From Bacteroidota bacterium (GTDB taxonomy: Bacteria; Bacteroidota; Bacteroidia; Bacteroidales; DTGW01): DNA of 64,000 nt. The position numbers were made by a program, and so were the translations under genes. This document shows, piece after piece, positions 2,811 through 61,728 of this stretch (positions are counted from its first letter, which is position 1; every line of letters starts with the position of its first letter). Under the pieces are notes generated by a model. That model searched no databases. It was not told where the DNA came from and saw only the letters and a list, made by a program, of their open reading frames with translations. Location: NCBI GenBank assembly GCA_029550865.1, contig JAKPGM010000021.1, positions 1-64,000 of the forward strand. The letters are read 5' to 3'.

Positions 2811-3347
2811 AAGCAATAATTGATTATTTATTTTGTGAAAATCATCTTTTTAGTAGCCACTTCATGGCCATCGCTTACAAGGGTATAGTAGTACATTCCT
2901 GGTCTCAGTTCCGAACCATAGATGATTATACTACTCTTTCCTAGCCTTGTTAACGGTATCGACTTTATTTGCATTCCACTCATATCATACAGGTAAATAT
3001 AAGCATTTTTTGTGTTATCTGGGAGGTAGTAATGTATTTGGGTATTTTGATCGAAGGGATTTGGAAAATTTTGTTCTAAGATAGCTAAATCAATATTATT
3101 TTCCTGGCTAATGTTCGTCGTTTCGTTTTCTTCAACTGCTGCTTTTAGTGATGTTTTAGACTTATTTATCAATTTTTTTAGCGAATCAATCTGGTACTGC
3201 TGCTCTTTGATAGCTTCGACCAAAACAGGGATTAATGCTACATAGTTGATTCCATAATATTTTTTTGCTGTATCATATACAACAATTTGGGGTAAAACCT
3301 GCTGTACTTCTTGTGCTACAAATCCCAAACGATTTTTTGTTTCTTTT

Positions 3348-3734
3348 TCATCCGAATAAAATTATTTAATATGTTGAATATTAATTATTTAAACCGTTCT
3401 TCCATTTCGTTGTATGGATAATATTCCCCATTTTATTCATTGTGTGTTTGTGCTTGAGCACAATCATGAAGGTTTCATCCGAATAAAATTATTTAATATG
3501 TTGAATATTAATTATTTACTCCATTTTTTCTATTTCGTTGTATGGATAATATTCCCCCATTTTATTCATTGTGTGTTTGTGCTTAAGCTCAATCATGAAG
3601 GTTTCATCCGAATAAAATTATTTAATATGTTGAATATTAATTATTTAAACCGTTCTTCCATTTCGTTGTATGGATAATATTCCCCATTTTATTCATTTTG
3701 TGTTTGTGCTTGAGTACAATCATGGGGGTTTCAT
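3348..3734 (-). repeat. three tandem ~128-bp repeats, ATGA-bounded family, subtype B
   Basis: Read on the minus strand, three near-identical units of 127, 129 and 127 bp begin at ATGA (3734, 3607, 3478) and share one ATGA at each junction; the last ATGA is 3351-3348. Each starts ATGAAACC, carries a hairpin around TTGTGCT/AGCACAA, then CACAAAC, and ends in an AT-rich tail and TTCGGATGA. The 3' tail aligns with subtype A (3731-3871), so the two are related. Longest open frame per unit is about 28 codons and probably not coding. Confidence 0.85.
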
Positions 3735-3871
3735 CCGAAAATATTATTAAATGTTTTTTAAATCGGTCGGATGGAACTCGCATGTGATGAACTTTCTACA
3801 CATAGGCAAGCATGAAACTGATAAATATTTTCATACTCGTTTGTGAATACTGCCATACATGCTCGTTTCAT
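3731..3871 (-). repeat. ATGA-bounded repeat, subtype A
   Basis: On the minus strand the unit begins ATGAAACGAGCATG at 3871 and ends TTTTCGGATGA at 3731. It is clearly related to the copies at 24454-24590 and 32694-32822. It can fold into two nested stems: ATGGCA (3856-3851) with TGCC-t-AT (3808-3802), and AGTATGAAA (3837-3829) with TTTCATGCT (3817-3809). It is the S74-proximal end of the array, and its first ATGA doubles as codons of the interrupted gene. Confidence 0.85.
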
Positions 3872-4325
3872 CAAATGTGTTCTTGGATCGAAAGTCAGTT
3901 CCATAATATTCTTCAGGCTTATAGTCAAAAGTAACTCCTCGTAAACGCTTAATAGTTTGTAAAGGAGTACTGATTGGTCGGATGTTTGACTTCATTCTTT
4001 CGTCGGAAGTGATAATAGGGTTGGGGCAATTGATAAATCTTGTATAAATTGTATTCCAGCGGTTATAATAACCAAGGTATCCAACATTATTTCTATCACT
4101 TTCGATGTTTATTTCGCTGTAATAGGAGTTAAAAAGTACTGTAGCGCTCTGTCCATAATAGGGAGTAGTGGTTACAATTCAGGTATTTCCAAAAATATCC
4201 ACTTTGTATGTTGGGGATAAAGTACCCAAACCGATATTTCCGTTGTTGTCAATTTTTATTTGTGCTAACGAGGGTATACTAAGCACACAGAGTGCAGCTG
4301 TGGCAAATGATGGTATAATTTTCAT

Positions 4326-24237: not shown

Positions 24238-24453
24238 ATATCATTACATGCTCTGTTGCTCACTGATTCTGCGTTATCACGACATAAACCAATAACTATT
24301 CTTCCTCCATGATAAGTTATGGTTTGTAATTTTTGCCTCAAGCTATTAACTTTGAAATTTGCTAAATTCTCTGCAAAAAACGCTAAGAAAAATTTCTGAG
24401 GACTTTGCGTACTTTATGGTCCTTGCGTGAGGATATTTTAAAATAATTTTCAA

Positions 24454-24590
24454 ATGAAACGAGCATTTATGGCAGAATTCACAAACAAGTATGAAAATAT
24501 TTATCATTTTTGTACTTGCCATGTGTAGGAAACTCATCACATGCGAGTTCCATCCGACCATTAAAAAACTTTAAAAATATTTTCGAATGA
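24454..24590 (+). repeat. ATGA-bounded repeat, subtype A, at S9 peptidase start
   Basis: Starts ATGAAACGAGC at 24454 and ends TTTTCGAATGA, where the last ATGA (24587-24590) is the start codon of the peptidase gene. Nested stems: ATGGCA (24469-24474) with TGCCAT (24517-24522), and AAGTA (24487-24491) with TACTT (24513-24517). A further stem CATGTG/CACATG (24520-24525, 24538-24543) has a loop, GGAAACTC, that could pair with GAGTTCC at 24545-24551. Similar over its length to 3731-3871 (minus strand) and 32694-32822. Confidence 0.85.
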
Positions 24591-32693: not shown

Positions 32694-32822
32694 ATGAAAC
32701 GAACATGTAAGGCGATATTGACAAACAGGCATATAAATTTTACTTCATGCCTACCGATGTTGCCTCTTACATGTAAGTGTAAAAGACCATTTAGAAACAT
32801 TTTAAAAACTATATTCGGATGA
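32694..32822 (+). repeat. ATGA-bounded repeat, subtype A, inside ech operon
   Basis: Starts ATGAAACGAACATG (32694) and ends ATATTCGGATGA, where the last ATGA (32819-32822) is the echD start. Nested stems: ACATGTAAGGC (32703-32713) with GCCT-c-TTACATGT (32762-32774), and AGGCAT (32727-32732) with ATGCCT (32747-32752). These stems use different bases from the copies at 24454 and 3871 but keep pairing and position. Without it, echC and echD would be 38 bp apart. Confidence 0.85.
32694..32822 (+). CDS. possible 42-residue peptide spanning the repeat
   Basis: An open frame runs the full length of the repeat: MKRTCKAILTNRHINFTS at the start, basic with several Cys, ending at TGA inside the terminal ATGA. 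Its stop overlaps the echD start, the arrangement used for translational coupling. The two other subtype A copies begin MKRA but hit stops after 24 and 37 codons, and coding evidence is otherwise lacking. Confidence 0.25.
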   Translation: MKRTCKAILTNRHINFTSCLPMLPLTCKCKRPFRNILKTIFG

Positions 32823-60397: not shown

Positions 60398-61666
60398 TTA
60401 CAGGTCGAAGCCAATATCGCGACGATAATATTTTCCCTGAAAATCTATTATTTCTGCATTTTTATAAGAAAGGGCGAGAGCTTCTTTCAGGTTTTTTCCC
60501 AACGATGTTATGCTTAACACCCTACCGCCTGAGGTAACCGTACGTCCATTGTGAAAGGTAGTTCCTGCATGGAATACAATAGAGTCTTTAACGTTAACCA
60601 GGTTGTTAATTTCAAATCCTTTTTCATAGGTGCCTGGGTATCCCTTCGAAACCAACATCACAGTAGCTGCAGTGCGGGTATCAATATTCAATTGAAATGT
60701 ATTTAATGTTTGATTGGCGATGGCATTAAAGAGTTCAAGTATATCGTTCTTAATACGTGGGATAATTACTTCTGTTTCGGGATCACCCAAACGAGCGTTG
60801 TACTCTATTACATAGGGTTCGTCGCCCACTTTCATCAAGCCGAAGAAAATAAAACCTTTATATTCGATACCCTCTTGTTGTAGTCCGGCAATGGTAGGTT
60901 TTATAATTTTATTTTCTACTTTTTGCATAAAATCTGGTGTGGCAAATGGAACCGGGGAAACAGCCCCCATTCCGCCCGTATTGGGGCCCGTGTCTCCTTC
61001 CCCCACACGCTTGTAATCCTTGGCCTCGGGGAGTAAGATATAGGATTTGCCATCGGTAGCCACAAATACCGATAATTCTATGCCTTGTAGATATTCTTCA
61101 ATAACCACCTCTTTCCCAGCCTGTCCGAATTTTCCCTGTAACATGGCATCAATTTCTTGTTCGGCTTCTGGCAGCGTGTTTACAATAACAACCCCTTTAC
61201 CAGCAGCCAACCCATCGGCTTTGATTACGTAGGGTGGTTGTAAAGTTTGCAAAAACGCCTTTGCTTCCGATCGATTCGATGCGTTTACCCGGAAAAATCG
61301 CGCAGTGGGAATATGGTATTTCGTCATAAATTCTTTGGCAAATGCCTTACTTCCCTCAAGCATCGCACCTGCTTTTGAAGGTCCAATGATGGGAACTGAC
61401 CTTAATCGTTCGCTACTGGCAAAAAAATCAACCAGACCCTTCACCAGGGGCTCTTCCGGACCCACTACCACCATGTCAATTTTGTTGACAATCACAAATT
61501 TCCCAATCGACTCGAACGAATAAGGTACAAACTCTATATTTATAGCTATGTTCCCAGTGCCTGCATTTCCTGGCGTGACGAAAAGTTGCGTTAAATGTTT
61601 GCTTTGTATAATTTTCCATGCAAGAGCATTTTCTCTGCCCCCTGAACCTATTAATAAAACCTTCAT
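60398..61666 (-). CDS. purD: phosphoribosylamine--glycine ligase
   Basis: 422 residues, ATP-grasp enzyme of purine synthesis. MKVLLIGSGGRENALAWKI at the N terminus, ADGLAAGKGV for ATP binding, and EYNARLGDPETEV for metals. ATG at 61666 is inside TTCGGATGA, the same sequence that ends the ATGA-bounded repeats. Starts an apparent operon purD-DUF6427-TlpA. Confidence 0.96.
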   Translation of the reverse strand: MKVLLIGSGGRENALAWKIIQSKHLTQLFVTPGNAGTGNIAINIEFVPYSFESIGKFVIVNKIDMVVVGPEEPLVKGLVDFFASSERLRSVPIIGPSKAGAMLEGSKAFAKEFMTKYHIPTARFFRVNASNRSEAKAFLQTLQPPYVIKADGLAAGKGVVIVNTLPEAEQEIDAMLQGKFGQAGKEVVIEEYLQGIELSVFVATDGKSYILLPEAKDYKRVGEGDTGPNTGGMGAVSPVPFATPDFMQKVENKIIKPTIAGLQQEGIEYKGFIFFGLMKVGDEPYVIEYNARLGDPETEVIIPRIKNDILELFNAIANQTLNTFQLNIDTRTAATVMLVSKGYPGTYEKGFEINNLVNVKDSIVFHAGTTFHNGRTVTSGGRVLSITSLGKNLKEALALSYKNAEIIDFQGKYYRRDIGFDL

Positions 61667-61728
61667 CCGAAAAAATTTTAATCGTGTGCTAAAATAATGA
61701 ATTTTTCCCACGCATTCGATTTGCGTGA

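Follow-up and report, generated by a model that had tools for sequence, protein, structure and literature searches.

The window analysed here is a 64,000-nucleotide stretch of the genome of a Bacteroidota bacterium (assembly GCA_029550865.1, contig JAKPGM010000021.1, positions 1 to 64,000). Four short noncoding units of two subtypes lie head to tail on its minus strand in the order A-B-B-B (137, 127, 129 and 127 bp; 3348-3871). Each junction reads ...TTCGGATGAAAC, i.e. TTCGG-ATGA-AAC with a single ATGA; the array also terminates in ATGA. The first-pass annotation, made from the letters of the DNA alone, had described one A and three B units sharing one ATGA per junction, and reading from 3871 down to 3348 confirms this; the array is real, but the range it was given (3475-3734) spans only the two inner B units. 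The units carry neither a transposase nor a guide RNA and are therefore satellites. With a probability of about 85%, they are non-autonomous satellites (mini-ISs) of an insertion sequence (IS) of the IS110 family, an RNA-guided transposon with a downstream bridge RNA.

The array splits a gene with Peptidase_S74 and Por_Secre_tail domains, the product of which is probably secreted. When the flanks are joined at a single GATGAA, a continuous frame results (KNTFDE-KETKNRLGFVAQEV) that holds both domains; at this reconstructed empty site nothing has been duplicated or lost. The gene has an in-frame stop farther upstream, behind which the open frame across the joined flanks begins; the gene is therefore decayed. 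The array was inserted at an internal GATGAA of this decayed gene, not at a start codon. An Rfam scan of the window finds tRNA only, and DNA folding of single units gives no strong structure (z -0.9 to -2.3).

The units belong to a dispersed family. The source genome (Bacteroidia; 2.5 Mb in 79 contigs, 84% complete) contains 66 BLAST matches to the array. The hallmark of subtype A, CATGCGAG(N)TTCCATC, has 107 exact copies there, compared with 0 for a reversed control pattern and thus far above chance, and CATGCGAGTTCCATC is found 133 times with up to one mismatch. Array order and junctions, of which the first-pass annotation had proposed a genome-wide census, were counted with nhmmer over the 295 kb of source-genome stretches that were read, partial units included. 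The count yields 94 arrays with 140 units (60 single, 25 double, 6 triple and 3 of four), mixed A/B arrays among them. Two of the 46 junctions between units are not intact; each of the other 44 has a single ATGAAAC.

The full-length element and its guide RNA

At two contig ends, a partial B unit continues into unique sequence and the start of a transposase gene. One full copy (L077, on contig C69 of the source genome) consists of a left end ATGAAACCTTCATGATTGTGCTTAAGCACAAACAC as in B, a gene for a 411-amino-acid transposase, a noncoding stretch and the right end TTTTCGG-ATGAAAGCG. The ATG of this right end opens a 600-codon open reading frame (ORF), which presumably encodes a NuoE/NuoF-like protein. 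The full element thus has its left end in common with B and its right end (TTTTCGG-ATGA) in common with A and B; CACAAAC stands at the identical left-end position in A units and in the IS. The transposase has the Pfam domains DEDD_Tnp_IS110 (PF01548) and Transposase_20 (PF02371), scores 266 bits (cut-off 140) against NCBIfam NF033542, 'IS110 family RNA-guided transposase', and matches IS621 in the PDB (E=8e-11). The first-pass annotation had proposed a search for a Y1/HUH, serine or tyrosine recombinase; the likely enzyme is instead this IS110-type DEDD transposase with its bridge RNA.

Four more helper left ends, all at contig edges, and one more right end are present in the source genome. 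Helper left ends on contigs C74, C39, C25 and C11 lie directly behind a satellite right end or a similar CGG-ending sequence. The full copy was itself inserted close to the 3' end of a gene for a NUMOD4/HNH endonuclease (L077:3963-4559, minus strand). The helper left end ATGAAACNNYCATGA contains a five-codon frame, the TGA of which overlaps a second ATG (CATGA); the transposase might be translated by coupling to a host leader at this point.

Downstream of the transposase gene lies a noncoding RNA of ~110 nt with two guide hairpins, which Bacteroidota homologues carry too. In the two-hairpin structure drawn from 12 sequences, 11 of 24 consensus pairs have changed in a compensatory way. An RNA model (R1) matches the source genome only at the two full-element copies; it gives no match anywhere in the window.

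Co-variation between guides and element ends was examined in 16 Bacteroidota elements by comparing the two bases that precede the ATG. Ends were set by a fixed rule: the right end is the first ATGAAA past hairpin 2, and the left end is the last GAAA..ATG motif ahead of the gene. Agreement with the left (target) junction is 18 of 22 bases for hairpin 1 (6.75 expected, p=2e-5); for hairpin 2 and the right end it is 29 of 30 (13.4 expected, p=2e-5). These p values take the elements as independent though they are related. The crossed comparisons are weak, with 9 of 22 (p=0.13) and 17 of 30 (p=0.009). Anchors set by hand give a like picture (17/20 for hairpin 1 and the left junction, 27/28 for hairpin 2 and the right end). 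All four bases also agree in L211, an element read after the hand-anchored run. The left end of L145 was apparently mis-chosen by the automatic rule, as the hand-anchored run has another; it was retained in the count.

Both guides read NN-ATG-AAA. Guide 1 has the ATG in 15 of the 16 elements while the two preceding bases vary freely; in L132, TAG replaces ATG in guide 1 and also at the left junction. Guide bases differ even between close relatives, with GG, TT and AA found among elements 66-87% identical to the transposase of the source genome. The 5' strand of hairpin 2, which is CACAAACAC or, in other lineages, CACACAGG, recurs in the same sense in helper left ends at positions 27-46 (e.g. 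AAGCACAAACAC in L077). This copy might serve as a donor contact or act as a mimic within the mRNA leader.

A mechanism can be proposed from these features. Transposase and bridge RNA would act in trans and excise or copy units as circles, with the joint of right end and left end as donor. This donor joint (CGG-ATGAAAC) would be joined to an ATGAAA target; the sequence of the unit-unit junctions is that expected of a circle junction. Where the ATGAAA is a start codon, the product would read host ATG, left end, right end with its own ATG, and gene, so that the coding sequence would stay intact. Intragenic insertions are presumably lost, save in decayed genes such as the host gene in the window.

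Among 395 genomes of the class, the hallmark occurs in numbers only in the source genome (107) and in G253 (27). Single hallmarks are found in G494, G515, G738 and G446; by eye, the first three are single units ahead of ATG starts, while the G446 site looks unrelated. G253 also has a helper with its RNA. Its satellites mostly end in CAG-ATGA and its guides read AG; in the source genome the corresponding sequences are CGG and GG. Units of the same plan stand beside a helper in G584 and G458 (by eye).

The transposase matches 6 of 394 other genomes in a class scan at E<=1e-40, and a separate search finds matches in 15 of 59 other genomes, none close over the full length. A search with the array DNA gives weak matches in 6 of 40 other genomes. 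Viral contigs give one distant match, and plasmids no record at at least 60% identity. Distant homologues (Alicyclobacillus, Proteobacteria and others at ~40-46% identity; G042 and G027 at ~34%) have different ends by eye; the ATGAAA trait is therefore seen only in closer Bacteroidota elements.

Start codons and competing explanations

In 47 arrays both ends are readable. The left junction has ATG in 39 of these and another triplet in 8 (GTG 3, TTG 2, AGG, TGG and CTG); in 7 of these 8 the right junction still has ATG. The right ATG is therefore that of the element and the left one that of the target. Over all 61 left junctions, ATG occurs 47 times, GTG 5, TTG 2, CTG 2 and other triplets 5. 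A G precedes the target ATG in 29 of 47 arrays with a left flank not ending in CGG; among the 98 ATGAAA sites of the window, it does so in 31 (p=6e-4). This is in line with the prediction of the GG guide.

The right end lies on the start of a 248-600-codon ORF in 9 of 13 assessable full elements. The others are L128, L132, L190 and L209; L144 is unreadable and L145 has no right end in the locus. Of the 109 hallmark sites observed, 35 are followed by another unit, 7 lack a right end and 4 lie at contig ends. The 63 terminal A-type right ends have the sequence ATGAA in 57 cases, and in 32 the ATG begins an ORF of at least 50 codons. Guides that read NN-ATG-AAA explain why 9 of 13 full elements and roughly half of the 3' ends of satellites fall exactly on start codons. 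Rebuilt empty sites look like starts, with a long frame downstream and a short one upstream, in 11 of 22 arrays, compared with 26 of 229 ATGAA sites in the window.

The balance tips slightly towards a broader reading, in which the start codon has become the evolved target of one lineage of RNA-guided transposons in Bacteroidota. This lineage would donate a replacement ATG, so that it could enter ahead of many genes and leave them unbroken. It would also feed swarms of guide-less satellites that stack between the original leader of a gene and the coding sequence, thereby replacing the sequence ahead of dozens of genes at once. Start enrichment alone does not show an evolved preference, because purging of intragenic insertions would also enrich starts. 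It is quite possible that any ATGAAA is targeted and that start codons are over-represented only through such purging. The guide holds nothing beyond NN-ATG-AAA, non-start sites are used too, and the window array itself lies inside a decayed gene. Against purging as the whole explanation, guide 1 keeps the ATG in nearly all elements with its flanking two bases free, although the TAG in L132 indicates that ATG is not obligatory; the share of full elements at start codons points the same way.

Several observations weigh against the satellite interpretation and its start-codon extension. Transposition, circle formation and the RNA are deduced here from sequence. Only a single full transposase gene is assembled in the source genome, and a phylum scan with R1 under strict filters matched 1 of 394 other genomes. 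The signal of the right-target guide is weaker than the others (10 of 14 at the first base, 5.8 expected, p=0.006). Between the inner motif of the A left end (positions 27-46, source genome) and the resident IS, 11 of 20 ungapped positions agree; with the G253 IS, 14 of 20 do. A-A arrays lack a clear insertion polarity: judged by bit score, the last unit is the better preserved one in 11 of 18, and judged by identity in 7 of 15. Finally, no start codon can be recognised at 31 of the 63 satellite 3' ends, nor at the window copy.

The left-end mismatch bears on whether A units have another mover. Only the B left end matches the resident helper cleanly; the satellite left end of G253 agrees with its own helper at 18 of 20 positions. 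A may thus have been moved mainly by another helper, now unassembled or extinct. That A units were moved by a Y1/HUH enzyme, another transposase or a tyrosine or serine recombinase, while the IS110 element just shares the target or B, is unlikely. The unlike inner motif and the presence of three Y1 genes in the source genome speak for it. However, the three Y1 loci lack these ends by eye, though no genome-wide search for other recombinases was made, and one of them (L044) is flanked by GTAG-type palindromes. In addition, the A right end CGG-ATGA fits donor guide 2 of the resident IS, the A right end of G253 (CAG-ATGA) fits the AG guide of its own IS, and A shares the placement of CACAAAC with the IS. 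HUH/Y1 was rejected as helper, as were the IS200/IS605 and REP/RAYT systems as models, on the same inspection of the Y1 loci. At L044 (contig C65), a dense array of GGTAGTCCCGTTAGGGACGAC-type palindromes lies downstream of the Y1 transposase gene and beside a RAYT-like gene; this is a second repeat system.

The units could also be host regulatory leaders (5' untranslated elements, promoters or upstream ORFs) under selection on expression. They lie directly ahead of many genes and supply the start codon, and one A unit (C61) can be read from its ATG as a 37-codon frame. This account is rather improbable: the units are spread over unrelated genes in variable array number, decayed copies are common, one array lies inside a pseudogene, and they are numerous in only 2 of the 395 class genomes.

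Growth of the arrays and related systems

Array mates are not each other's closest relatives. Among 30 A units, 1 has its nearest relative in its own array, and among 7 B units likewise 1, near the level that chance alone would give (0.33 and 0.62). On average, A units are 0.806 and B units 0.935 identical to their array mates, close to the all-pairs means of 0.794 and 0.947. Since array mates are no closer than units elsewhere, the arrays were built by serial insertion and not by duplication; serial insertion at ATGA in place of slippage, as the first-pass annotation had put it, is thereby supported. Tandem duplication of resident units by slippage or unequal crossing-over would account for the shared head-to-tail orientation and the likeness of the B units in the window, but it is very improbable given these relationships and the alternation of subtypes with exact ATGAAAC joints. 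A stands before B in 15 arrays and B before A in 1. This order suggests that the A units are older and that B units, which are more uniform, were inserted into their 3' ATGA.

Under the IS110 satellite model, each insertion would remake CGG-ATGAAA next to the gene, a near-perfect match to the resident target guide CGCGG-ATGAAAC. Further units could therefore enter the same place and stack. In integrons, serial insertion of gene cassettes likewise regenerates the site and yields mixed head-to-tail arrays. The earlier comparison with cassette accumulation at one site is apt as an analogy; insertion here, however, occurs at ATGAAA in many places, with start codons strongly over-represented. The 94 arrays are dispersed and not on one platform, and the units are noncoding; no search for intI was made.

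The closest known systems are IS110 elements with a bridge RNA or seekRNA (IS621; ISEc11 of the IS1111 group). These share with the present family a DEDD transposase, a noncoding RNA with target and donor guide loops, insertion without added duplication (tested here on the window array) and mini-ISs movable in trans (PMC11208160 and PMC11187229). A mini-IS with an 84 bp left end and a 71 bp right end is described in PMC11187229 as moving when transposase and seekRNA are given in trans. The present family differs in its guide 1 of NN-ATG-AAA, its right end with an ATG of its own, its 411-amino-acid transposase and its more than 100 satellite copies, many in stacked arrays.

The helper resembles the IS1111 group, the elements of which have the RNA downstream of the transposase gene (PMC11208160), in that its RNA-bearing noncoding region follows tnp. 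It is not assigned to that group because its transposase lies outside the 330-350 amino acids given there (PMC11187229). IS1111 elements have subterminal inverted repeats of 11-13 bp; here an imperfect pair, ATGAAACGAGCATG / CATGCGAGTTCCAT, is seen by eye in A units only. The pair is ATGAAATCGAGCATG / CATGCGAGATTCCAT in G253 and ATGAAATAGCCATAT / ATATGGCGTATTCCAT in G584, L211; it differs between genomes on both sides, as though retained either for pairing or to serve as a subterminal inverted repeat.

Bacterial miniature inverted-repeat transposable elements (MITEs), such as QMITE1/2 of Coxiella, are also short, high-copy, noncoding and dispersed, and have ends in common with an autonomous element, as do B (left) and A and B (right) with L077. 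In contrast to MITEs, the window array has no target-site duplication, and end recognition would be by guide RNA; the units are therefore named satellites or mini-ISs. QMITE2 itself is, according to PMC5896051, a target of IS1111 and not its derivative. Within the open-access papers searched, neither a start-codon-guided IS110 lineage nor arrayed IS110 satellites were found.

Natural bridge RNAs are programmable. A guide that spells ATGAAA would be a simple and computationally testable answer to the questions of which targets evolution chooses and how high copy number is reached without host death. The satellites would show in nature what engineered mini-ISs have shown, namely that two ends suffice for carriage in trans, and stacked units would amount to a natural, RNA-guided cassette system. 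Insertions at start sites alter the sequence right before the start codon and are a possible source of expression change in Bacteroidota.

Further copies in the window

Besides the array, the window holds one single A-type unit, one decayed A-type unit and a possible relic (Table 1). The gene behind the decayed unit is presumably nuoC. The lone motif at the third site is perhaps the relic of an old right end, ahead of a gene taken here to be purD.

Table 1. Satellite units and associated features in the 64,000-nucleotide window
Feature	Position	Strand	Remarks
Host gene, Peptidase_S74 + Por_Secre_tail	2828..4325	-	split by the array at GATGAA
Whole A-B-B-B satellite array	3348..3871	-	ATGA at end
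Unit A, 137 bp	3735..3871	-	left end ATGAAACGAGCATG, CACAAAC at position 27, right end ATTTTCGG
Inner inverted copy of unit A	within 3735..3871	-	CATGCGAGTTCCATC
Unit B, 127 bp	3608..3734	-	
Unit B, 129 bp	3479..3607	-	
Unit B, 127 bp	3352..3478	-	
Final ATGA	3348..3351	-	carried by right end of last unit; host gene resumes in frame beyond
Single A-type unit	24454..24586	+	right end adjoins start codon (24587) of Peptidase_S9 gene
Decayed A-type unit	32694..32818	+	ATGAAACGAACATG ... TATATTCGG; adjoins ATG start at 32819
Possible right-end relic	61664..61680	-	TTTTTTCGG-ATG at start codon, lone copy

A repeat with CGCAAAG...CTTTGCGTGAGG lies directly before or after several satellite units, both in the source genome (islands on C67, C79_80100, C35 and C44) and in the window (24401-24453). 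It often has a TTTTCGG/TTTTCAA tail as the satellites do, and could be either an additional subtype or an element that has entered a unit.
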